Below, piece by piece: positions 17,178 to 36,929 of a DNA stretch of 64,000 bases; the first letter of the stretch is position 1; each line of letters starts with the position of its first letter. The DNA is taken from assembly GCF_042453785.1 (NCBI RefSeq), contig NC_091675.1, positions 8,940,501 through 9,004,500 on the forward strand. Direction: 5' to 3'. Below the pieces are notes generated by a model that had not been told where the DNA came from, ran no database searches, and saw only the letters and a program-made list of their open reading frames with translations. This stretch comes from Malus domestica (taxonomy: Eukaryota > Streptophyta > Magnoliopsida > Rosales > Rosaceae). Made by a program: the position numbers and the translations under genes.

Positions 17178-18310
17178 TGTGAACACGAAAATTTCCTAAA
17201 ATGAACGAGACAAGAACAACGTGCACAAAATAATATTTGTATTTGATGATTTTGGGTTACAATCTCTCTCAAATTTGATCCTCTGATTCGATCTCCGTAA
17301 GGTGTTGATTTATGGATGTTGTTGATCCAAGGGCCGTCGAGGCTTGATCTTGGATGAACGGTTGAAAGTTTCTACAAGGGCCGTTGAGGCTTGATCTTGA
17401 ATAACGGTGATGAACAGATCTTCAAGGGCTTTTGGGCTTGATCTTGAAGAACAGTGATTGATGGATCTTCAAGGGCTTTTGGGCTTGATCTTGAAGAACA
17501 GTGATGAACGGATCTTCGAGGGCTTTTGGGCTTGATCTTGAAGAACAGTGATGAACAGATCTTCAAGGGCTTTTGGGCTTGATCTTGAAGAACGGTTGGA
17601 TGTGTGGATTTGTTGATGTTGTTGATCCAAATGGTCGTTGGGGCTTGATCTTAAGATGAACGGATGATGAACGATGAACACTTTCTTCAAGGGCCGTCGG
17701 GGCTTGATCTTGAAGGTGGATGATTGTTGATCCAAGGGCCGTTGGGGCTTGATCTTAGAAGAATGATGAACGATGAACGAAGAACGAAGAAGGCTTTCTT
17801 GATTCTTCGGGATGAACGGATTATAAACGATGAACACTTTCTTCAAGGGTCGTCGGGGCTTGATCTTGAATTGGTGGAAGTTCTTCAAGGGCTTTTGGGG
17901 CTTGATCTTGAATTGGTGGAAGTTCTTCAAAGGGGTCGTCGGGGCTTGATCTTGGAAGAACGATGAACGAAGAACGAAGAAGGCTTTCTTGATTCTTCGG
18001 GAACCTGGATGCTTGAAAGATTCGAAGTTTAAGAGCTTCAGAGTTTCAAGGTGTAATATGAATTGGTTTCTTGAAATGAATGAAATTGGCTTCTATTTAT
18101 AGAATTTTCCAAGGCCTAATTTTGAATATAATATTCCAGATAAAATAAGTTGTTTCTGCCAGGTGTTGACACGTGTCCTGTTTGATGACTTTTCCAACTT
18201 ATTTCGTTTTTTGTTTAGACACACGCTACGTGTAAAATTCATGTAATACATGAGCGTTGAAACTTTGATTTATTGGTCAACATTTATTTACCGAAATTTC
18301 GATGTCTACA
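17178..18310 (-). repeat. 3' LTR of the gag-bearing element, with minisatellite
   Basis: This LTR of 1133 bases contains many copies of a module built around AGGCTTGATCTTGAA. Four copies of a 47-base version lie at about 17412-17600. Compared with the other LTR it carries one extra 47-base unit and one extra unit of about 43 bases near 17880, which explains most of the 95-base length difference. Confidence 0.92.
18085..18110 (-). promoter_or_regulatory. LTR TATA box (3' LTR copy)
   Basis: The minus strand reads TTCTATAAATAGAAGCC, a strong plant TATA box, in the same sense as gag. The same motif occurs in the 5' LTR at about 26602-26620, where it would drive the element. Confidence 0.65.
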
Positions 18311-18610: not shown

Positions 18611-20387
18611 AATTTGGACCACAAGGAGCTTCATGTGGTAGATGATCTTTGGCTTTGGTAGTGGATGAATCGGCACGTATTTTGTTGCACTTGTTGACTT
18701 TCCACAGCTTTGATCTTGAACTGGGTTGGAGGATTTTCTGGATTCCTCCAGTTGTTGACTTTCCACAGCTTATTCTTGAACTGGGTTTGATTCAAGGGTG
18801 GCAGACGCTTGATCTTGAATCTGACTTGTGATTTCCTCAAGGGCCGTCGAGGCTTGATTCTTGAAGGTTGACTTGAACACATGGCAAGCAAGCACGAGGT
18901 GAAGGTGACGACTTGTTGCTTTATTCAATCTTTCTAATTCACACCTGAGCAATTTGGTCAACGATATAATCTTCAAGATTGATGGGCTCTTCTTCCAGTT
19001 TGTGACTTGATCTTTAAGGATTTGATTCAAGGGTGGTGAATCGGCACGTGCAGCCCACAACGCCTAGCGAGTCAACCCAAGAATTTGAGGGTCAAAATGA
19101 GTCCTCCACCCATAGTGATTGCAACCCTGATGATATGAGATACTTTTGATTTTGAAGAAGTAGCGGATGAATCGGCACGTGCTTTGTTGTGCTTGTCTCC
19201 ACATGCTTCAATGTATCATTTTCCCTTGCCTTATTTATTCTTCTGGCAGAATATGGCATCTTCTCGAGTTCCACAGCTCAAACTCCTTCTGCTGAGTTGA
19301 CTGTGCTGGCTGCATTCTTCTATGCTTGTTTCTTTTGCACGTTGTCTCCACATGCTGCAAGGTATCATTTTCACTTGCCTTATATGTTCTCCAGGAAGAT
19401 GTGGCAGCTTCTTTGGAAGTACAGCAGCAGTGGAAGACGAGTACTCGAGAGCGGTGCTAGGTAGGCAACCAGGCCAAGGTTCCAGGTAGTCAATTCCTTA
19501 CCTGGGTTTGAGTGGAGGTTCCGGCATATTGTTTTCTTTATCCTTGTCTTTGCAGGTAAGAACAAGGACAAAGGAAAGGACATGGAGAAAGCATGATATG
19601 AGATACTTTTGCTTTCTACCCTGGTGATATGAGATACTTTTGCTTTGGTGTTATTTGTTTGCAGAGGTACCCCAAGGAATAAGGAACACTGAGTGACTCG
19701 AGAGGCTTCATTGGTAGGCATTCTCGGAGATGAAGAAAGGTCATGTATGTCTGCCTTGCTATGGAAGGTGAAGGTAGACAGTTATAGGAAGTTCTTTAAT
19801 ACCTGTAGAGGTACGATTTTTTCACTCGTGTCGGCAACCATTGAGTGATTGATCAGTATGGCTTCACGTACTTTCTTCTTCATCAGAAATCTTTGACAAA
19901 TTGTCCGTAATTTTCGCCAAGCTGAGTGTGCATGTGACAGGTGTTGACGAGGCTGAAAAAGAATGGCGCCTCTTTGATATCTGGGATCGGCGCTTCGATA
20001 AATTGCCCGTGATTTCCGTAAAGCTGAGTTTGCGTGTGATGGGTGCTGACGCATTTGGAAAAGCAAGATACCTCTTCGATTTCTGAGCTTGCCTCTTCGA
20101 TTTTTGAATTGACCTCTTCAATTTCTGAGCTCTGTCGAGTGCAGAGGTTGCATGTGACAAGTGCAGACAAGTCTGGAAAGGAAGATTAGCCCGTGGTTTC
20201 TGAGCAAGCCCAGCTTTTGAGAAAGCTAGTGCCTCTTCGATTTCTGAAATCTCGTCGAGTGTTGATTTTTATCGAGGTACGTAGGACGTTTCAAAGCACA
20301 CTTGAATTTCTGCCTGTAGAAACTCCCTTCTTGCACTTCTACGATCTTGACTTGTCCGACCTCTTCTTTCTTTCAACATCTTTGAAA

Positions 20388-20831
20388 ATGTTTGGTCCCT
20401 CCGACCGTCGTTTTGACTTGAACCTTGGTGAAGAGGCAGTCCCGCCTTCTCCAGACAACATATGGTGCCTATCTTTCATATCTCCTACTGGTCCTTTTAC
20501 CGTTGGGGATTCGGTGATGAAGAATGATATGACCGCTGCGGTGGTGGCTAGAAACCTTGTCATTCCCAAAGATAACAGACTACTTTCCAAACGGTCTGAT
20601 GAGTTGGCTGTTAAGGATTCTCTGGCTCGCAGTGTGCAGTGTGCAGTGTGCAAGTTCTGTGTTAAGGATTATCTGGCTTTCAGTCTATTTGCTCGAACCC
20701 GTCAAGTTGAATCATTGGCGGCTGAAGTGATGAGTCTCAAACAAGAGATTAGAGGGCTTAAGCGTGAAAACAGAGAGTTGCACATGCTTGCCAATAGTTA
20801 CTCGACAAGCATGAAGAGAAAGCTCGACTAG
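20388..20831 (+). CDS. Antisense zipper ORF in LTR element, copy 1 (ends at premature stop)
   Basis: A 147-residue frame starts at ATG 20388 (MFGPSDRRFDLNLGEEAVPP) on the strand opposite to gag. DLNL followed by prolines resembles a DLN/EAR repression motif. Residues about 105-135 form a leucine zipper with leucines exactly seven apart over four heptads (LAAEVMS, LKQEIRG, LKRENRE, LHMLANS). The homologue at 31962-32453 reads through where this copy has TAG (20829-20831, after KRKLD), so the stop is probably a Gln codon mutated to TAG. Downstream the frame would enter a Pro-rich repeat. It is not a gag or pol domain that I know. Tat-lineage elements are known to carry extra antisense ORFs, and this may be such a case. 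Confidence 0.6.
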   Translation: MFGPSDRRFDLNLGEEAVPPSPDNIWCLSFISPTGPFTVGDSVMKNDMTAAVVARNLVIPKDNRLLSKRSDELAVKDSLARSVQCAVCKFCVKDYLAFSLFARTRQVESLAAEVMSLKQEIRGLKRENRELHMLANSYSTSMKRKLD

Positions 20832-21150: not shown

Positions 21151-21302
21151 CCTTGAAAATCCCCCCTATAAATTTGATTTGACCTTTTTTTTTAAAGGTA
21201 TGTATAATGCAAATTTATGTAAAATTTCCAGAAAAAATAAATAAAATGGACTTTTATTTCTCTTAGTGCATTTGTTTTTATTCTCTTTTTTTTTTTTTTT
21301 TT

Positions 21303-21639: not shown

Positions 21640-23160
21640 AGGGAAGGACGAAGTCAAGGGAGGATGCAGAGCACAACAAGGACGGACGCACAAGCATCAA
21701 CTGCCGAGGATCCTATTGCTCTGAGAAGGTCACGAGTATGGTGATAAAGTTGGAGGTTAGAGAACGAAAAGCAAGTTGTCCCAAGATCACCCCGAGATCA
21801 CTGGAGCTCCGACGAGATCTGATCTGGGGTCGAGGGAGATTACCTTGTTGCTGCCGCTAGCGTTGATCAACGGTTGGTGCTGCATCGACACTCTGCTGCT
21901 ATCGGCTGAGCAGGGAAGAAGTAGAGTACCTCTCAAGCTTTCTTCATGGGTCTCGGTGAATAATCTGGCAGAGAGAATGGTGTATTGCAGTTGGGTCTTG
22001 TCTAATGTGGCTTCATCTCTCGCAGCCATGACTCTACAATCCCTGTGTATTTCTCAAACCCAGCAAGGTTTTCAGAAACCCAGCAAGAAGGTTTCAAAAA
22101 TCAGCAACTATGCTCCACTTCTCGACCACGCTCTTTGCCAGCGGAGTGCCACTGAGCCGATCACTTGCAGGGAGTTCAAATCGCAGTCGTCCATCTTGTT
22201 TCTGTCCCCGTGTTTCAACAAAGTTACGACCGTCGGTAGGGCACATGCTATGTGGATGTTTTGGAATCGCTTGATGGATCTCGCCAGACACCAATTTCCC
22301 CTGATTTACGACCTTCGCAATCTAATGAGCGAAGAGAGAGTCGACGTTATGCAGGTTACAGAATGAAGTGGAAGAATGAGGGATCGAGGTCGTGGTTCTG
22401 GGCCTGACCTGAGGTGGTCTTGCAGTTGTTGACGATAAGCAGGAGAGATAGCTATGGTGACGAGTGACCTGCAGCAGGTGTCGTAGATGATGCTGATGGC
22501 TAGGCGGACCCAGAAAAGATTTGAATCTCTCAGAGTTCCAAGTCGAGCTTATCCAGCTTGCACCCCAGCTTAATGGTGATCACGTCCTCAGCACTTACCC
22601 TAATACTGGCGAGACCATGACAGTGCATGAAGCAAACATTTACGCGGAAGTTCGTGCATGAAGGTTCACGAAAACGGCGATTGGGGTATCTGCCGTAGCT
22701 GCACATAAACTTGACTTCGTAGGAGGAGGAAGAGAACAGTAGGAGTAGAAGTTGGTGGCATCGAGAGTACTAAAGCTTTGGGGATCCATAGAGGAAGAGC
22801 ACCGGTGGGCCTGCTTCTATTGAATAGAAGTTGGCGGCGATTTCTATGCAAGTCACAGCTTTACAAACCTCATCGACGCTGATTATGGAAGAGTCGAACT
22901 GGATGTCACAGAGATGGTGGAGCTTAGTGGTTCGTTGGATGACGTGCTTGGAGTCGTCGAGGTCGAGCTTCGAATCTCTCTGCACACCTATTCTCAAAAG
23001 CTTCCTCTGGCATTGCGGCGATGGGCCTGATGTTGGTCTTGATGCAAACTTGGGCCTGGTGTTGCTTTGGAGAGATCTAGGTTTGGGCTTCTTCTCATAT
23101 GAAGAGCCGAATTGGGCTTGTGGCTTGAGCCTTTTGTTGCAGCTAGGCCGAGACACCCAT
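21640..23160. other. GC-richer unidentified segment inside the LTR element
   Basis: This 1.5 kb is less AT-rich than its surroundings and has long open frames on both strands. The longest are 21776-22366 (+) and 22770-23246 (-). I recognise no domain. The minus-strand frame over about 22780-23140 has even, gene-like composition (KHVIQRTTKLHHLCDIQFDS, ISVDEVCKAV). It could be a captured host-gene fragment, but I cannot name a donor. Confidence 0.35.
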
Positions 23161-23300
23161 ACATATACATTATTTCTTTTTCTTTTCTTTTGTTTTTTTT
23201 TTGTTTTTTTGTTTTGTTTTTTTTTTTTGTAAATACATAATAACATATGTATTCATTTTTTTTTCTTTTGTAATATAATTGACTTTCTTTAATAAAACAT
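23160..23300. repeat. T-rich low-complexity tract
   Basis: Long runs of T and TTTTG/TTTTC, with no coding content. Confidence 0.85.
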
Positions 23301-23753: not shown

Positions 23754-25707
23754 TCAAACGATCCTGGAGAGGCATTCCTTGTAATTTTCATAGCAAGGAG
23801 TCTTGACCGAATGATTGAAGAAGTCTTCAGGAAAGAAATCGCGTATCGTGATAGGGATGGACGATCTATGTGTCGAAATTTCATCATCTTCAACACGTTC
23901 ACGTTGCTTTAAAGGTTGACAAGAGCTGCTTTGCCCCCTTTCCGATTGTCGGACTTGTGGAGGAGACGTATGCTTCTTGTGCAATTTCTTAGGAGTGACT
24001 TGAGTCCATCCTTCAACTTTGCTTGTCTTGGAGGATGCCCCCAGCGGTTGAGGTAAAAACCTTGAGTCGGAAGAGCCAGAAGTGATGGTGGTATAGTTTG
24101 ACTTCACCAAATCGTCAAAATCTAGCTCGATGATTCCTTTCTGAGCCAGTTTCATGATGAGATCTTTCAGCATGAAGCACTTTTCTGTCGAATGACTGAT
24201 GAAGGGGTGGAATTTACAGTATCTTGGACTGTCGGTACGATTCATCTCTTCCGGCCGTCTGCACTCAGGCAAACCGATCACCTTCTTGTCCAACAGGTCA
24301 TTCAGCATGGCAACCACATCAGAGTCGGGGAATGGATAAGTCTTCTCATCAAGCTCCTTCAAAGTGCGTCTACGCATCTCTTGATCACGAAAAGCTTCGG
24401 TTTGAATCGCCTTGCCTCGTGTGAAGATTTTGACGAGAGATGTGTTGACCGTCTTTACTTCCTTGGTGGGTTTCCATGCAGCCTTATCCACCTTTGGCCC
24501 CAAAACTTTGTCGTTCTTGTAGTCTTCGATTGGTTCTTTCTTCCCATGATGGGCGATGCTTAACTTCATGTCATGGGCGCGAGTGGCCAATTCCTCGAAG
24601 GTCTGTGGTTTAATGCCTTGAATGATGTATTGCAAACCCCAATGCATGCCTTGGATGCACATATCGATTGAAAAGGTTTCCGAGAGCCTGTCTTTACAGT
24701 CAAGGCTTAGAGTGCGCCATCTGTTGATGTAGTCAATGACTGGCTCGTCCTTCCATTGTTTTGTGCTCCTTAGCTCTAGCATGCTCACAGTACGGCGGGT
24801 GCTGTAGAAGCGTTGAGGAATTCCCGCTCCAATTGCTCCCAGTTGTTGATGGACTCAGGCTCTAGGTCCGTGTACCACTCAAAGGCGTTTCCTTTCAGCG
24901 AGCGCACAAACTGCTTGGCGAGGTAGTCCCCTTCGGTCCCTGCGTTGTTGCAAATTTCAACAAAGTGGGCAACGTGCTGTTTCGGGTTTCCTTTTCCATC
25001 AAATTGCATGAACTTTGACGGTTGATAACCCCTCGGCATCCTTAAGGCGTCAATCTTCTTTGAATACGACTTCGAGTACAACCCGGAGGTATTTGAGCTC
25101 CCTTCGTACTGTGCCTTGATGGTGTTGGTGATCATCTACTGCAGCTGCTGGATAGAAAGAGATCCCATGAGTGCCGCTGCTTGGTCTGGCTCCCGCTTCA
25201 CATCGATTCTCTCCACTTGAGGCTCATCTTCTCCGCCAGCTCCTCTCTTTAATGGATCATCCTCCAGGTCGGGGTTCTCGCTGTCATGTGGCTCCAGTCG
25301 GCTGACGAGTGCAGCGATTTGCAAGTCTTTTTCTTCAACAATCCGTGTTAGCCTTGTGATCGCTTCATTCATTTGAGCCAACTTTTCTTCAATGGAGGTA
25401 ACGCCGATGGTCATGACTTGTGCAACCATCATACGCGACTCTTCAGGCATCCAGGGTGCTGATGAATGACCCCGTTGGCCGCTTTGGGATGTTATCTGAT
25501 ATGCCTTAATGGCATGCTTCGATGCCCTAGCGAGGTTAGGTTGATGACAGGCTCGTGTCTTTGATGCTCCACTTGCTCTCTCAACGACACCGACTTTGAA
25601 GTGGTTTGTTGAAGAGTAGTTGTGGCGCCAATGGATGCTCCGTTCATGGTGGAAGTGCTCATGCTTCTTCCCTTTGTGAGAACGGCTTGTCCTTTGCTTG
25701 ATGCCAT
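23754..25707 (-). pseudogene. Retrotransposon gag, degraded
   Basis: The likely start is ATG 25707 (MASSKGQAVL), 81 bases inside the 5' LTR boundary. The central retrotransposon gag fold is clear: MPRGYQPSKFMQFDGKGNP, FVRSLKGNAFEWYTDLEPES and WKDEPVIDYINRWRTLSLDC. A C-terminal region contains CKFHPFISHSTEKCFMLKDL, a zinc-ribbon-like segment. A frameshift lies near 25495, a TAG stop at 25136-25138 between two otherwise continuous blocks, and a further frameshift near 24790. The reading frame then runs to 23754. No protease follows. This copy cannot make a full gag, but related copies might. Confidence 0.85.
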
Positions 25708-25787: not shown

Positions 25788-26825
25788 TGTGAATACAAAA
25801 ATTTCCTAAAAGGAACGAGACAAGAACAACGTGCACAAAATAATATTTGTATTTGATGATTTTGGGTTACAATCTCTCTCAAATTTGATCCTCTTATTTG
25901 ATCTCCGTAAGGTGTTGATTTATGGATGTTGTTGATCCAAGGGCCGTCGAGGCTTGATCTTGGATGAACGGTTGAAAGTTTCTTCAAGGGCCGTTGAGGC
26001 TTGATCTTGAATAACGGTGATGAACAGATCTTCAAGGGCTTTTGGGCTTGATCTTGAAGAACAGTGATTGACGGATCTTCGAGGGCTTTTGGGCTTGATC
26101 TTGAAGAACAGTGATGAACAGTTCTTCAAGGGATTTTGGGCTTGATCTTGAAGAACGGTTGGATGTGTGGATTTGTTGATGTTGTTGATCCAAAGGGCTG
26201 TTGGGGCTTGATCTTAAGATGAACGGATGATGAACGATGAACACTTTCTTCAAGGGTCGTCGGGGCTTGATCTTGAAGGTGGATGATTGTTGATCCAAGG
26301 GCCGTTGGGGCTTGATCTTGGAAGAACGATGAACGAAGAACGAAGAAGGCTTTCTTGATTCTTCGGGATGAACGGATTATAAACGATGAACACTTTCTTC
26401 AAGGGCCGTCGGGGCTTGATCTTGAATTGGTGGAAGTTCTTCAAAGGGGTCGTCGGGGCTTGATCTTGGAAGAACGATGAACGAAGAACGAAGAAGGCTT
26501 TCTTGATTCTTCGGGAACCTGGATGCTTGAGAGCTTCAGAGTTTAAGAGCTTCAGAGCTTCAAGGTGTAATATGAATTGGTTTCTTGAAATGAATGAAAT
26601 TGGCTTCTATTTATAGAATTTTCCAAGGCCTAATTTTGAATATAATATTCCAGATGAAATAAGTCGTTTTTGCCAGGTGTTGACACGTGTCCTGTTTGAT
26701 GACTTTTCCAACTTATTTCGATTTTTTGTTTAGACACACGCTACGTGTAAAATTCATGTAATACATGAGAGTTGAAACTTTGATTTATCGGTCAACATTT
26801 ATTTACCGAAATTTCGATGTCTACA
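25788..26825 (-). repeat. 5' LTR of the gag-bearing element
   Basis: This 1038-base LTR matches 17178-18310 apart from fewer minisatellite units and scattered substitutions. It begins TGTGAATAC and ends GTCTACA on the plus strand. Confidence 0.92.
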
Positions 26826-29130: not shown

Positions 29131-29140
29131 GATACAAGTT

Positions 29141-30571
29141 GGAAAGGTTCTTGCTACAGAGAACGCGGTTAAAGACAGATGGAGAGGTTATTTTCATAAT
29201 CTTTTCAATGAAGGACATGAAATGAGTGCTTCTTTAGGGGAGTTGAGTAACTCAGAAGAGTGTAGAAACTACTCTTTTTATCGTCGAATCCGGAAGGAAG
29301 AAGTGGTTGTAGCTTTGAAGAAGATGAAGCATAAAAAAGCAATAGGCCCAGACGATATACCAATCGAAGTGTGGAAACTTTTGGGAGAGACAGGTATAAC
29401 ATGGCTCACTGACCTTTTCAATAGGATTTTGAAAACGAAGAAGATGCCAAATGAGTGGCGAATGAGCACTTTGGTGCCTATCTACAAGAATAAGGGCGAC
29501 GTACAAAATTGCATGAACTATAGGGGTATTAAGCTAATGAGTCATACAATGAAGCTCTGGGAGAGAGTCATTGAGCATAGATTGAGGCAAGAGACACGGG
29601 TTTCGGACAACCAATTCGGGTTCATGCCAGGGCGCTCAACCATGGAGGCAATCTATCTCTTACGAAGATTGATGGAAAGATATAGAGATGGGAAAAAGGA
29701 TTTACACATGGTCTTTATAGATTTGGAAAAAGCGTATGATAGGGTCCCAAGAGACATTCTTTGGAGGATTTTAGAGAAGAAAGGAGTACGAGTAGCATAT
29801 ATCCAAGCTATAAAGGAGATATCTATAAACTATCTAGAGCAAGGGAAAAGAAGACAAGGGACCTAAACCAAGTGAGGTGCATCAAGGATGAGGATGGAAA
29901 GGTTCTTGCTACAGAGAACGCGGTTAAAGACAGATGGAGAGGTTATTTTCATAATCTTTTCAATGAAGGACATGAAATGAGTGCTTCTTTAGGGGAGTTG
30001 AGTAACTCAGAAGAGTGTAGAAACTACTCTTTTTATCGTCGAATCCGGAAGGAAGAAGTGGTTGTAGCTTTGAAGAAGATGAAGCATAAAAAAGCAATAG
30101 GCCCAGACGATATACCAATCGAAGTGTGGAAACTTTTGGGAGAGACAGGTATAACATGGCTCACTGACCTTTTCAATAGGATTTTGAAAACGAAGAAGAT
30201 GCCAAATGAGTGGCGAATGAGCACTTTGGTGCCTATCTACAAGAATAAGGGCGACGTACAAAATTGCATGAACTATAGGGGTATTAAGCTAATGAGTCAT
30301 ACAATGAAGCTCTGGGAGAGAGTCATTGAGCATAGATTGAGGCAAGAGACACGGGTTTCGGACAACCAATTCGGGTTCATGCCAGGGCGCTCAACCATGG
30401 AGGCAATCTATCTCTTACGAAGATTGATGGAAAGATATAGAGATGGGAAAAAGGATTTACACATGGTCTTTATAGATTTGGAAAAAGCGTATGATAGGGT
30501 CCCAAGAGACATTCTTTGGAGGATTTTAGAGAAGAAAGGAGTACGAGTAGCATATATCCAAGCTATAAAGG
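29141..30571 (+). repeat. 755-base tandem duplication within the LINE
   Basis: Segments 29141-29816 and 29896-30571 appear identical. Their translations and their antisense open frames match residue for residue. The offset is 755 bases. The first unit is cut at its 5' end by the LINE truncation, and the joint shifts the frame so only the second unit continues into the full reverse transcriptase. Confidence 0.9.
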
Positions 30572-31517
30572 ATATGTATGAAGGAGCAAAGACTGCCGTA
30601 AGAACTCATGAAGGACAAACCGAAAGCTTTCCCATAACTGTAGGATTACATCAAGGCTCATCCTTAAGTCCTTACCTTTTTGCGTTGGTAATGGATGAGT
30701 TAACACGACATATTCAAGATGATATTCCTTGGTGTATGCTTTTCGCAGACGATATAGTGTTGATAGATGAAACTCAGGAAGGGGTAAATGCAAAGCTTAA
30801 CCTTTGGAGAGAAGTGTTGGAATCTAAAGGTCTTCGCCTAAGCCGATCAAAGACAGAATATATGGAGTGCAAGTTCAGTGCAAATGGAGGTCAAAACGAG
30901 TTAGGGGTGAGGATCGGAGATCAAGAAATACCAAAGAGCGACCGTTTTCGTTACCTAGGATCTATCTTGCAAAAGAACGGAGAATTAGATGGAGATCTCA
31001 ACCATAGAATACAAGCTGGATGGATGAAGTGGAAGAGTGCATCCGGCGTGTTGTGTGACCGCCGTATGCCACTGAAGCTCAAGGGAAAATTTTATAGGAC
31101 GGCAATAAGGCCGGCGATGCTGTATGGCACAGAATGTTGGGCGGTGAAACATCAACACGTACACAAAATGGGTGTAGCGGAGATGAGGATGCTTCGTTGG
31201 ATGTGTGGGCACACGAGAAAGGATAAGATTAGGAATGAGGATATCCGGGGTAAAGTAGGAGTAGCCGAAATTGAAGGAAAGATGATAGAAAATCGGTTAC
31301 GGTGGTTTGGACATGTGCAAAGAAGGCCTACTGACGTTCCGATTAGAAGATGCGACTATGGGACAGAGGTTCAGGGCCGAAGGGGTAGAGGAAGACCTAG
31401 GAAAACTTTGGAAGAGACTCTAAGAAAAGACTTAGAGTACTTAGATCTAACGAAGGACATGACACAGGATCGAGCACAATGGCGTTCTAAGATTCATATA
31501 GCCGATCCCACTCAGTG
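29146..31517 (+). pseudogene. RTE-type LINE, reverse transcriptase region, with internal tandem duplication
   Basis: The 5'-truncated ORF2 encodes a reverse transcriptase: [89 protein letters not shown] and FADDIVL. It is followed by the C-terminal segment FRYLGSILQ to [13 protein letters not shown]. There is no endonuclease domain, as it is lost by truncation. The longest open frame runs to a stop at 31516-31518. The first part is duplicated: 29141-29816 repeats at 29896-30571, separated by about 80 bases that belong naturally upstream. The related copy ends in (TTG)n, common in plant RTE elements. Confidence 0.88.
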
Positions 31518-31784
31518 ACTTGGATTTTCCAAGTCTCCAACTGAGAAGTTTTCCTCACTCGGGAAATTAAGGGAACACTACCCCAACCTACATGCTCCAC
31601 TCAGAAAGCTTCAACATACAAGCTTTAACAAAAGAAAATTCAAAGAACATAGCGAAGAAGGCTTTGGTGTATTTAACACAATACGTTGAAATGAAGGAAA
31701 GCTTATTTATTGATATCCCCGATAAGCTACAAATATGTACATATACATGAGTCAAAATAAGCACACAAGAGGGAGCCTTCACAA

Positions 31785-31961
31785 AGGTTGCTTAGGAGAA
31801 GTCTCAGCAGTCGGTAGAGCCCCAGAAAGAGAAGGCACCGGAGGGGGATCATTTGGAGCCTCAGTACTGGACAGAACCCTAGAAGGAGGAGGCATCAGAG
31901 GTTGATCATTTGGAGCTTCATTACGCGGTACAGCCCCAGAAGACGAAGGCAATAAATGCCT
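31785..31961 (-). pseudogene. Pro-rich tail of zipper ORF copy 2, beyond a stop
   Basis: After the TAA at 31962-31964 the same minus-strand frame stays open to about 31785 and encodes EAPNDQPLMPPPS and EAPNDPPPVPS. This parallels the repeat tail of the first copy. The TAA probably arose from a CAA Gln codon. Confidence 0.55.
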
Positions 31962-32453
31962 TTAGAACAAACCCACAAATCTCTGATGATCAAGTAAAAC
32001 CTGACCATCAGTTTCCTTCATCTGGTCAAGCTTCCTCTTCATGTTTGTAGCATAGTCATGTGCGAGCCGGTGCAACTGTTTATTCTCATGCTTGAGCCCT
32101 CTAATCTCCTGTTTGAGACTCATCACTTCAGCCGCCAATGATTCAACTTGGCGGGTTCGAGCAAATAGGCGTTGGGCCATATTAGACACAGAACCTGCAC
32201 ACTGAACACTGAGAGCCAGCGAATCCTTAACAGCTAACTCATCAGACCGTTTGGAAAGTAGTCTGTTATCTTTGGGAGTGAGAAGGTTCCTGGCCACCAC
32301 CGCAGCGGTCATATCATTCTTCATCACGGAATCCCCAACGGTAAGAGGACCAGTAGGGGAGACGAAGGATGGGCGCCATATGTTGTCTGGAGAAGGCGGG
32401 GCTGCCTCTTCAACAAGGTTCAAGTCAAAACGACGGTCGGAGGGGCCAGACAT
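31962..32453 (-). CDS. Antisense zipper ORF in LTR-type element, copy 2
   Basis: This 163-residue frame starts at ATG 32453 (MSGPSDRRFDLNLVEEAAPP). It aligns over its full length with the ORF at 20388-20831, about 80 percent identical by eye. It keeps the DLNL-Pro motif near residues 10-20, a conserved TGPLTVGDSVMKNDMTAAVV block, the SKRSDELAVKDSLA block, and the same four-heptad leucine zipper (LAAEVMS, LKQEIRG, LKHENKQ, LHRLAHD). A basic stretch (NMKRKLDQ) follows. No basic DNA-binding region precedes the zipper, so it is not a bZIP. It lies opposite to the inferred LTR sense. Two conserved copies in elements with unrelated LTRs suggest selection or module exchange. Confidence 0.6.
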   Translation of the reverse strand: MSGPSDRRFDLNLVEEAAPPSPDNIWRPSFVSPTGPLTVGDSVMKNDMTAAVVARNLLTPKDNRLLSKRSDELAVKDSLALSVQCAGSVSNMAQRLFARTRQVESLAAEVMSLKQEIRGLKHENKQLHRLAHDYATNMKRKLDQMKETDGQVLLDHQRFVGLF

Positions 32454-32579
32454 TTTCAAAGGTGTTGAAGAGAGAAGAGGTCGGACAAATCAAGATCTTA
32501 GAAGTGCAAGAATGAAGCTTCTACTGGTGGAGATTCAAGTGTGCTTTGGAACTTAATGCCAGCCCCTATAAAAATCTGC

Positions 32580-32830
32580 ACTCGACGAAGCTTCAGAAAT
32601 CGAAGAGGCGTTTGCTTTCTCAAAAGCTGGGCTGCTTAGAGATCACGAGGGTTGATCTCAGAAATCGAAGAGGCGTTTGCTTTCTCAAAAGTTGGGCTGC
32701 TCAAAGACCACGAAGGCCGATCTCAAAAATCGAAGAGGCGCTCGCTTTCTCAAAAGCTGGGCTCCTCAGAGACCACGAGGGCCGATCTCAGAAATCGAAG
32801 AGGCACCTACTTTTCCAGCCTTTTCCAGCC
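32580..32830. repeat. ~64-base tandem repeat upstream of zipper ORF copy 2
   Basis: About four units share AAATCGAAGAGGCG and TTTCTCAAAAGCTGGGCT. A similar but more diverged pattern lies upstream of the other copy (about 19880-20260). Confidence 0.8.
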
Positions 32831-34560
32831 TTGTCAGCACCTGTCACACGCACACTCAGTTTTGCGGAAATTATGGGCATTCTGTCAAAGACTTCTGGGG
32901 AAGTAGAAAACACATGAATCTTACTGTTCAATCACCCACTTCCCACACGCAACAATAGCTCATGGGTACCACAGATAACTTTGCCAAAGTTCTCTGCCAA
33001 AGTTGAGCACGTGAAGCTTGCAGCTCCCACTACATCGCTCTGACCAAGAAGGGTAAAAGAATAGCAAAGAAACAGCACTAACAAAGTTTAGACCCATAAA
33101 TTTTGAAGGTCTAGCTACCATATTATTACCCACAAGGGTAAAGGAACAGTACCACTGCTGGATAATTGGAAAGTCCCTGTGTGTCAACCTCTGTGCTTCG
33201 TGGCAAGGTAGACTAGCAAACATGCCCAACCTTTACTCACATTCGAGAAAACACTCCCAATAAGATTGCTTGCTCCAAAATCGAAGAGGCACCGTCCTCC
33301 GAATCTCGAGAGCCAGACTCCCAACATGACTACTTTCTTAAAAATCGAAGAGAGGGTAAAGGAACAGTACCATTGCTGGATAATTGGAAAGTCCCTGTGT
33401 GTCAACCTCTGTGCTTCGTGGCAAGGTAGACTAGCAAACATGCCCAACCTTTACTCACATTCGAGAAAACACTCCCAACAAGATTGCTTGCTCCAAAATC
33501 GAAGAGGCACCGCCCTCCGAATCTCGAGAGCCAGACTCCCAACATGATTACTTTCTCAAAAATCGAAGAGACACTGCTCCCCGAATCTCGAGAGCCAGAC
33601 CCCCAGCATGATTGCTTTCTCAAAAATCGATGAGGCATCGTTCTCCGAATCAATCGAAGAGGCGCTCGCTTTCTCAAAAGCTGGGCTGCTCAGAGACCAC
33701 GAGGGCCGATCTCAGAAATCGAAGAGGCACCTACTTTTCTAGCCTTGTCAGCACCTGTCACACGCACACTCAGCTTTGCAGAAATTATGGGCATTCTGTC
33801 GAAGACTTCTGGTGAAGTAGAAAGCACATGAATCTTACTGTTCAATCACCCACTTCCCACACGCAACAATAGCTCATGGGTACCACAAATAACTTTGCCA
33901 AAGTTCTCTGCCAAAGTTGAGCACGTGAAGCTTGCAGCTCCCACTACATCGCTCTGACCAAGAAAGGTAAAAGAATAGCAAAGAAACAGCACTAACAAAA
34001 GTTTAGACACATAAATTTTGAAGGTCTAGCTACCATATTATTACCCACAACTGTAAAGGAACAGTACCACTGCTGGATAATTGGAAAGTCCCTGTGTGTC
34101 AACCTCTGTGCTTCGTGGCAAGGTAGACTAGCAAACATGCCCAACCTTTACTCACATTCGAGAAAACACTCCCAATAAGATTGCTTGCTCCAAAATCGAA
34201 GAGGCACCGTCCTCCGAATCTCGAGAGCCAGACTCCCAACATGACTACTTTCTCAAAATCGAAGAGAGGGTAAAGGAACAGTACCATTGCTGGATAATTG
34301 GAAAGTCCCTGTGTGTCAACCTTTGTGCTTCGTGGCAAGGTAGACTAGCAAACATGCCCAACCTTTACTCACATTCGAGACAACACTCCCAACAAGATTG
34401 CTTGCTCCAAAATCGAAGAGGCACCGCCCTCCGAATCTCGAGAGCCAGACTCCCAACATGATTACTTCCTCAAAAATCGAAGAGACACTGCTCTCCGAAT
34501 CTCGAGAGTCATACCCCCAGCATGATTGCTTTCTCAAAAATCGAAGAGGCATCGTTCTCC
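32741..34560. repeat. Nested tandem duplication (~920-base and ~217-base units)
   Basis: A unit of about 920 bases is repeated (32741-33664 and 33665 to about 34560). Inside each, a subunit of about 217 bases beginning TAAAGGAACAGTACCA is itself doubled (starts 33139, 33357, 34054 and 34271). The copies differ at scattered sites. This is satellite-like growth inside a transposon. Confidence 0.85.
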
Positions 34561-35966
34561 GAATCTCGAGAGCCAGATACCACAGACCACTTTTTCAAAG
34601 TGCTCTGACAGAGTTAAAACATGTGAAACTGGCAGCTCCCACTACCGTGCTATGACCAAGCAGGGTAAAGGAATAGCATTACTACTTATTGTTAGGGAGA
34701 CTCCTATATATGTCGACCTTCATCCCCAACGGACAGGCAGACCTGCAAAAATGCTCAACCCTTCATCATATCTGAGAGGGCACTCCCAACGAAGCCTTTC
34801 GAAATATTCAGCTTTCTTTCCCCCCGATAATACCTCTGCAAACAAGCTATACTAGAGCAAGAATATCTCATATCATCAGGGTTAAAAGCAAGAGTATCCC
34901 ATATCATGCTTTTTCCCTGTCTTTTCTTTTGGCCTTGTTTTTACCTGCAAGACAAGGAGAAAGAGAGCAATCAGTCAGCACTTGGAATCAAGCTCCCAGC
35001 CAGGAACTGACTGCCTGGAACCCCTTACCTGATTACTTACCTGGCATTGCTCTCGAGTACTCATCTTCAACATCTTATGTTTCCAGGGAAGATTCCGCAT
35101 CTGCTTGAGGAACAGATAGGGCAAGTGCGAAGGATACAAGGAAGCATGTGGAGACAAGCGTAACAGCACACGTGCCGATACATTCATTACTCTGTCAAAA
35201 GCAAAAGTATCCCATATCAGCAGGGTGGAACGTACTCTAGATTTGATGGACTTGTTTTGACCCTCAAATTCTTCAGTCGGCCTTATACTCTGGAGGAAAC
35301 CAGAAAACCCTCCAGCTCAGTTCAAGAATAAGCCTGTGGAAAGTTACTTCTTCAAAAGCAAAAGTATCTCATATCATCTCTTCTCATTTTTCTTCTCTTT
35401 ATCCTTCATGCTGCTGCAAGATGGGGAGAAGGTGAACAATCAGTCGGAGCTCTGATTGCTTACCTTGTCTGTCACCTCTTTCAGCAGACCCCCTAGCTCG
35501 GCGACTTGGGGGACTCCTACTACATGGTTTGTATCGCGCTTGACCAAGCCTGAAACTACAAGTAAGCTTCAAGTGAAATTGATACATTACCTTGTGCATC
35601 TCCACCAGTTAAAGATACCACCCCTGGATGGAGGAAGAGTACTTCCAGAGAAGATGCCACATCTACCTATGAGACAGATAAGGCAAGTCAAGACGACACC
35701 ACACTCCGATACTTAGAAGTTTCGTGACTACGAGATCATTCTCCCACAATATTTCCTAATGTCATTTGTACTAAATCATTCACTTGTACTCACTAAATGA
35801 GAGCTTGAACCTATGTACTTGTGTAAACCCTTCACAATTAATGAGAACTCTTCTATTCCGTGGACGTAGCCAATCTGGGTGAACCACGTACATCTTGTGT
35901 TTGCTTTCCTATCTCTATCCATTTATATACTTATCCACACTAATGACCGGAGCAATCTAGCGAAGA

Positions 35967-36581
35967 TCACAAAAAGCGATCGTTTTCGCTACCTAGGATC
36001 TATCTTGCAAGAGAACGGAGAATTAGATGGAGATCTCAACCATAGAATACGAGCTGGATGGAAAGAGTGCATCCGGCGTGTTGTGTGACCGTCGTAGGCC
36101 ACTGAAGCTCAAGGGAAAATTTTATAGGACGGCAATAAGGCTAGCGATGTTGTATGGCACAGAATGTTGGGTGGTGAAGCATCAACACGTACACAAAATG
36201 GGTGTAGCGGAGATGAGGATGCTTCGTGGGATGTGTGGGCACACGAGAAAGGATAAGATTGGGAATGAGGATATCCGAGGTAAAGTAGGAGTAGCCGAAA
36301 TTGTAGGAAATATGAGAGAAAATCGGCTCCGGTGATTTTGAACATGTGCAAAGAAGGCCGACTGACGCTCCGGTTCGAAGATGTGACTACGGGACAGAGG
36401 TTCAGGGCCGAAGGGGTAGAGGAAGACCTAGGACAACTTTGGAAGAGACTCTAAGAAAAGACTTAGAGTACTTGGATCTAACGGATGACATGACACAAAA
36501 CCGAGCGCAATGGCGTTCTAGGATTCATATAGCCGACCCCACTTAGTGGGAAAAGGCTTTGTTGTTGTTGTTGTTGTTGTT
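35967..36581 (+). pseudogene. RTE-type LINE 3' end, copy 2, with (TTG)n tail
   Basis: The segment matches 30936-31517 of LINE copy 1 at roughly 95 percent, with a 9-base deletion near 36060. It has a broken frame (stop near 36333). It runs through [10 protein letters not shown] to RAQWRSRIHIADPT and ends GGGAAAAGGCTTTG(TTG)n directly at the outer target duplication. Confidence 0.88.
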
Positions 36582-36582
36582 G
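36559..36582 (+). repeat. (TTG)n LINE tail
   Basis: About seven TTG units at the LINE 3' end, the usual tail of plant RTE elements. Confidence 0.9.
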
Positions 36583-36929
36583 ATACAAGTCGGAAATAAT
36601 ATCCAATACGAGAATGTGCATGAAGATTTTGCACAAGAAATTAACAAGAAGTTGACAGATGCCCTCGGATTGGAACATTGGGCAAATTATCGGGACCAAA
36701 TTCCATGCAATTGAAAATATAGGTACGGAATTGAATCTTTGTAGATGTATTTTAACAGGAAGCATAGAATCAACTGTAATTTTTACATGAAAGATTGGAG
36801 AAACAACTGTAATTTTCAATACTGACGATAATTTTTTTTCAGAAACACAACATATTGGAACCAAAACGTACAGTTTCCTCACGAACCCCGAAAGGTTGAA
36901 CAAAAATTTGATGGATTACATACTTGAAC

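Follow-up and report, generated by a model that had tools for sequence, protein, structure and literature searches.

Our subject is a short open reading frame (ORF) in a 64,000-nucleotide stretch of the Malus domestica genome (contig NC_091675.1, positions 8,940,501 to 9,004,500; hereafter, the window). It lies antisense to gag in a long terminal repeat (LTR) retrotransposon and encodes a leucine zipper preceded by a motif that resembles the ERF-associated amphiphilic repression (EAR) motif of plants. We find that this ORF is, beyond chance, a decayed copy of a conserved antisense gene, and that purifying selection acts on the protein which the gene encodes. The element is read on the minus strand, and its parts are as follows.

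17178..18310, minus strand: 3' LTR (LTR comparison)
20266..20277, plus strand: position of a TATA-like box, about 120 nucleotides (nt) before the ATG, altered in the window copy (placed by hand)
20388..20831, plus strand: antisense ORF from ATG to stop, 147 amino acids, a shortened copy (ORF reading, copy comparison and predicted structure)
21236..21241, plus strand: AATAAA, possible polyadenylation signal of the antisense gene (motif search)
22815..22973, minus strand: piece of the host gene ORC6 (PF05460, 3.7e-8), residues 94-146 of the ORF 22770-23252 (Pfam)
23754..25705, minus strand: gag, three open pieces in this copy (ORF list, Pfam)
25788..26825, minus strand: 5' LTR (LTR comparison)

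The antisense ORF and its element

The two LTRs differ at 24 of 1037 aligned sites, and a 5-bp target duplication (ATCAT) is found just outside both. A stop and a frame change separate the gag pieces, and the gag match (PF03732, 4e-5, in 24785-25135) is on the minus strand, in agreement with a preliminary description of this DNA that had placed the ORF opposite to gag. The same description had called the element pol-less. For the window element this holds, as no pol-like ORF was seen by eye in its ORF list and five of its ORFs were scanned without a pol-family match, but the gene itself is not confined to such elements (a relative that has pol is described below). The ORC6 piece lies in sense between gag and the antisense ORF, at the position of pol.

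Near the start of the window ORF, RRFDLNL occupies residues 7-13, with prolines then at residues 19, 20 and 22, and further on four leucines follow each other seven residues apart (110, 117, 124 and 131); both features had been described correctly. Among 20,000 shuffles of the window protein, [LF]DLN[LF] arises in 0.15% and L-x6-L-x6-L-x6-L in 0.97%.

Copies in the apple genome

Copies were searched for in the 651-Mb assembly (19 contigs) of the same genome. The DNA search returned 3531 loose candidates; 40 were scored, and these match at 87% identity or more. From the 9575 candidates of the protein search, 150 were scored, with identities of 81-100%. These 150 are the best-scoring matches, window copy included, and 142 of them have no stop inside the match. 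We read 31 copies, consisting of 30 that were fetched (the window copy among them) and a second copy in the window:

31962..32453, minus strand: second antisense ORF copy, 163 amino acids, in an LTR-element fragment enclosed by an RTE-type long interspersed nuclear element (LINE) (sequence comparison)

Fifteen of the 31 copies are open for 203-249 codons, and the remaining 16, the window copy among them, are shorter. The window copy is longer than most over the compared part by 12 nt that they do not have (444 versus mostly 432 nt) and has its stop at codon 147, with L002 and L005 ending at the corresponding position. The searches of this genome were filled with close copies and reached no relative much more diverged; in searches of viral contigs and of other genome contigs, no relative was confirmed.

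Unlike the window copy, the family has what looks from its sequence like a complete antisense gene. A TATA-like string is found 111-122 nt upstream of the ATG in 30 of the 31 copies, the window copy being the exception, and AATAAA is found beyond the ORF, 660-848 nt after the ATG, in 29 (L010 has none and L029 a single one, within the ORF), both patterns being loose and the 3' side of the gene AT-rich. Upstream of the gene, CTCTTCGAT repeats are present in all five copies checked.

Selection on the antisense protein

The copies fall into a subfamily A of 16, to whose type the window copy belongs, and a subfamily B of 15, and they were compared over 143 codons. The pooled ratio of nonsynonymous to synonymous substitution rates (dN/dS, or omega; Nei-Gojobori method, NG86) is 0.21 within B and 0.29 between A and B. 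For 19 of the 31 copies, a codon-model grid puts omega at 0.3-0.35, with twice the log-likelihood difference (2dlnL) to omega=1 being 50.1; the 12 copies left out are the window copy and L016 (extra bases), nine that are interrupted here by a stop or by a frame change, and L014, which is free of such defects. Because an overlapping sense frame in third-to-third register mirrors omega over the first hundred or so codons (0.31 versus 0.28 in antisense), codons 1-100 and 101-143 were analysed apart, giving an omega of 0.4 (2dlnL 27.8) and 0.3 (2dlnL 21.7), respectively. Mean diversity at codon positions 1, 2 and 3 is 0.066, 0.053 and 0.111. Fixed differences alone give a weak signal (7 nonsynonymous, 6 synonymous, p=0.09). 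In a 108-codon gag segment from ten elements, dN/dS between subfamilies is 0.09, compared with 0.29 for their antisense ORFs. The antisense protein is thus constrained, though less than gag. The preliminary description had proposed dN/dS as a test of the ORF, and the outcome is favourable to it: omega is about 0.3, not near 1, and many copies are open rather than all being broken.

These data also bear on whether the ORF could be a chance one, conserved only through recent amplification or through the overlap with the sense frame. The copies are indeed close relatives and the two frames have mirroring omega values, but in all 14 copies checked the sense frame is interrupted by stops that face antisense codons 102 and 134, and codons 101-143 keep their low omega; together with the diversity by codon position, this makes a chance ORF barely credible.

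The DLNL motif, the zipper and the predicted fold

LNL is present in all 31 copies and the preceding D in 30, with FDLNL in 25 and LDLNL in 5. The conservation of DLNL among copies, on which the preliminary description had staked its reading, is therefore borne out (30 of 31). The likeness to an EAR motif is real for the core: the pattern (L/F)DLN(L/F) of the first ERF repressors (PMC6479872; papers are cited here by PubMed Central (PMC) identifier, from excerpts of their text) occurs in 30 of 31 copies, the window copy having it without the following proline, and LxLxL is fitted by LDLNL in 5 of 31. According to the same source, proline-free DLN hexapeptides are able to repress in yeast. The protein thus has the FDLNL core in common with plant EAR repressors (ERF-type L/FDLNL/F(x)P; LxLxL; DLNx(x)P) and differs from them in its misplaced proline, in the N-terminal position of the motif, in being encoded by a retrotransposon and in having no recognised DNA-binding domain.

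The heptads are conserved at their core. At the d positions the residues are L, L (29 of 31), L, L and Y, and at the a positions V, V, I, N (30 of 31) and A, those without a count being invariant in the 31 copies. Within the helix, 2 of 12 a/d positions are variable versus 20 of 29 others (Fisher p=0.005). For both window copies, AlphaFold2 predicts a single helix (68-146). The predicted local distance difference test (pLDDT) score is at least 90 for 35 residues, with block means at 92-97 from residue 111 onwards, whereas residues 1-87 score below 50. The N-terminal segment with FDLNL is probably disordered. In the longer copies, a proline-rich tail follows the helix. From the predicted structure, we infer that the long helix dimerises as a coiled coil. 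A sequence search of solved structures gave no significant match (best E 0.11). As had been noted before, the zipper is not accompanied by a basic region: there is no Pfam match to the basic leucine zipper (bZIP) families and none is seen by eye, and bZIP identity was rejected on these grounds.

A protein of this kind might act as a dominant-negative partner, whose zipper pairs with and blocks a particular host bZIP or other zipper protein to the benefit of the element. The conserved a/d core with an Asn at one a position would suit such a partner, and so would the lack of a bZIP match or visible basic region; but heptads alone cannot separate homo- from hetero-dimers, and we regard this explanation as improbable. 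Even less probable, in our view, is that the antisense transcript rather than the protein matters, through double-stranded RNA or transcriptional interference. Such a role has been raised by Vicient and Casacuberta (PMC7264820) and would account for the conserved promoter-like and AATAAA sequences, but an omega of about 0.3 and the conservation specific to the heptads point to a protein.

An accessory gene of Ogre/Retand-type elements

The relative L043 carries pol in sense, with an antisense ORF (L003, 249 codons) on its 3' side. One ORF of L043 contains RT_RNaseH (1.2e-17) followed by RVT_3 (4.8e-22), and an integrase core (3.6e-12) lies downstream; its LTRs are 93.6% identical over the best 577-bp piece, and its gag side (L044) contains stops. 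An additional RNase H between RNase H and integrase defines Ogre/Retand-type elements of the Tat lineage (PMC6317226), and we find it in this pol-bearing relative only, the window element having no pol. The antisense ORF is located between pol and the 3' LTR in L043 and between gag/host piece and the 3' LTR in the window element. Judged by the domain order read in L043, the antisense gene belongs, as an accessory gene, to a family of LTR retrotransposons of Ogre/Retand type (Tat).

Retand-type elements are already known to have antisense ORFs on the 3' side (PMC11963269, PMC7264820). In maize Grande, the antisense gene has a promoter of its own, from which it is transcribed, and it encodes a nuclear protein (PMC7264820). 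Our family resembles the antisense ORFs of this lineage (aORF/eORF-3'R; Retand ORF4, Grande gene23, RIRE2) in its TATA-like box and short upstream repeats, and differs from them in having an EAR-like motif plus zipper and no Transposase_28 domain (PF04195). More specifically, the two window copies (E<=10) and L033 (E<=1) have no match to Transposase_28. The same genome contains 24 matches to this domain, and a profile of the antisense protein had no match among ORFs at 12 of these loci (best E 0.68). Membership in Transposase_28 was rejected on both counts. The domain does not strictly define Retand, since it is found in 61 of 63 clusters in one study (PMC11963269) and in 23% of Retand elements in another (PMC6317226). 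The latter survey distinguishes 314 groups of extra ORFs in gypsy elements, counted only from 250 codons; the 15 longest copies here (203-249 codons from the ATG) are below this cut-off, and a protein of their size could therefore have been missed.

The preliminary description knew of antisense ORFs in Tat-lineage elements and not of this architecture, and we come to the same result: the placement is known, and a protein family with an EAR-like plus zipper layout appears to be unreported as far as our literature search reaches. In open-licence papers of PMC, no such protein was found for retrotransposon with EAR or TOPLESS (titles and starts of abstracts) or, among the matches listed, for antisense ORF with zipper protein.

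A slot for captured host genes

Five relatives (L031, L033, L035, L037 and L047) are elements of about 9.9-10.7 kb whose best LTR pieces are 97.5-99.9% alike. No pol-like ORF is seen between gag and the antisense ORF in any of them among the ORFs listed, a set outside which L039 and parts of L037 and L041 fall. The gag pieces matched are free of stops in L037/L038; in L031, stops are confined to the most N-terminal piece. At the position of pol, three of these elements carry host pieces in sense, recognised by Pfam: DUF1218 and part of a CDC20/Fizzy WD40 in L033, aquaporin and thioredoxin-like in L035, and S-locus glycoprotein, kinase and EF-hand in L047. Two further ORFs of L035 and one of L045 have no Pfam match. 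Between L033 on one side and L035 and L047 on the other, the flanks are common and the middle is unshared. As read from these sequences, the position is a capture slot in which pieces of host genes replace pol and differ between captures. In the window element, the slot lies at about 21640-23200.

The L033 capture is present at four places (100%). Its host-locus matches are in three blocks on contig C13 and five on contig C7, which are joined in the element; spliced RNA is therefore the likely source, the intronless state being tested for this capture only. Elements that transduce host genes are known (maize Bs1; rice and sorghum surveys; PMC13317346, PMC7264820), and ours are like them in carrying sense, intronless host pieces (for the capture tested). 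They are unlike them in that the slot lies between gag and a conserved antisense gene and the captures vary by copy.

The gag and the 3' part are without a common history: L033 and L037 have the same capture but differ more at the gag side. Across the five relatives, the pooled proportion of synonymous differences (pS) is 0.36 in gag versus 0.019 in the antisense ORFs; such divergent gag next to near-identical antisense ORFs marks the elements as mosaic. At L045/L046 (C7:22687000-22703784), three LTR-like repeats and two antisense ORF copies stand in a row, a layout resembling tandem elements with a common LTR, and further copies lie nearby on C7.

Possible functions of the antisense protein

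Tentatively, and with somewhat less than even confidence, we propose that the antisense zipper protein recruits TOPLESS-type co-repressors through FDLNL and so damps or times the sense transcription of its element. The antisense gene would be transcribed from its own promoter, and the protein would dimerise in the nucleus, where FDLNL would contact the co-repressors. Having no DNA-binding region, it might depend on a partner to reach its targets, either a further zipper protein with which it pairs or the nucleoprotein of the element. This role would be like that of antisense HBZ in HTLV-1. HBZ of human T-cell leukaemia virus type 1 (HTLV-1) is a bZIP protein and acts as a repressor. The likeness to HBZ/APH-2 of HTLV extends to being an antisense gene of a retroelement and, for HBZ, to the zipper. 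Our protein has no basic region, and host and element are unrelated. The full form of the proposal, an element-borne, dimerising, TOPLESS-recruiting adaptor with control over the element or over host zipper factors, on which selection acts even in gag-only derivatives with spliced host messages instead of pol, is in our estimate rather unlikely.

Several observations weigh against co-repressor recruitment. As for the strict forms of the EAR motif, the earlier likeness fails in the window copy: its FDLNLGEEAVPP fits neither LxLxL nor DLNx(x)P, the nearest proline being the seventh residue after DLN. The bare DLN tripeptide does not repress and DLN occurs in 2112 rice proteins (PMC6479872). Moreover, the whole N terminus is conserved among the copies reached, DLNL not being singled out, and the searches made found no distant homologue in which to test DLNL conservation. 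Within subfamily A, pooled NG86 dN/dS is higher (0.49), and the window copy is probably inactive, as it is the only one of 31 without an intact TATA-like string.

Close behind the co-repressor model, though doubtful in its own right, we rank a role in the replication cycle: as a dimeric accessory factor, the protein would help to bring the integration complex into the nucleus, to export genomic RNA or to assemble particles, with DLNL being fortuitous or structural. Retroviral Rev and CERV of the C. elegans element Cer1 would be its counterparts, the latter a precedent for genomic RNA export (PMC10309623). Purifying selection, the retention of the gene beside gag in pol-less elements and the long predicted helix all fit such a factor, but the antisense placement and the gene's own TATA-like box suggest expression independent of gag-pol, and LNL in 31 of 31 copies would be left unexplained.

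With many open copies, clear selection and testable motifs in a compact, recognisable protein, the family bears on the question of what Retand-type antisense ORFs do, as posed in PMC7264820 and PMC11963269. Should the protein indeed recruit TOPLESS, this would give plant retrotransposons an antisense co-repressor with a role comparable to that of retroviral HBZ. For the study of gene capture, the family also offers a good system, as it keeps its antisense gene next to a slot where host pieces have taken the place of pol.

A LINE chimera around the second copy

The second antisense ORF of the window lies in a 4.4-kb LTR-element fragment that is apparently enclosed by a chimeric RTE-type LINE (29135-36590), whose ends are TTGATACAAGT-like by eye. 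The 3' part of the LINE is present twice (30932-31517 and 35970-36548, 92%). The join between LINE and LTR fragment was found again at one other place checked, on contig C11 (L061, 99.86% over 2065 bp), and the chimera has thus multiplied. Within the LINE, there is also a direct duplication of 681 bp (29140-29820 and 29895-30575, 99.85%).
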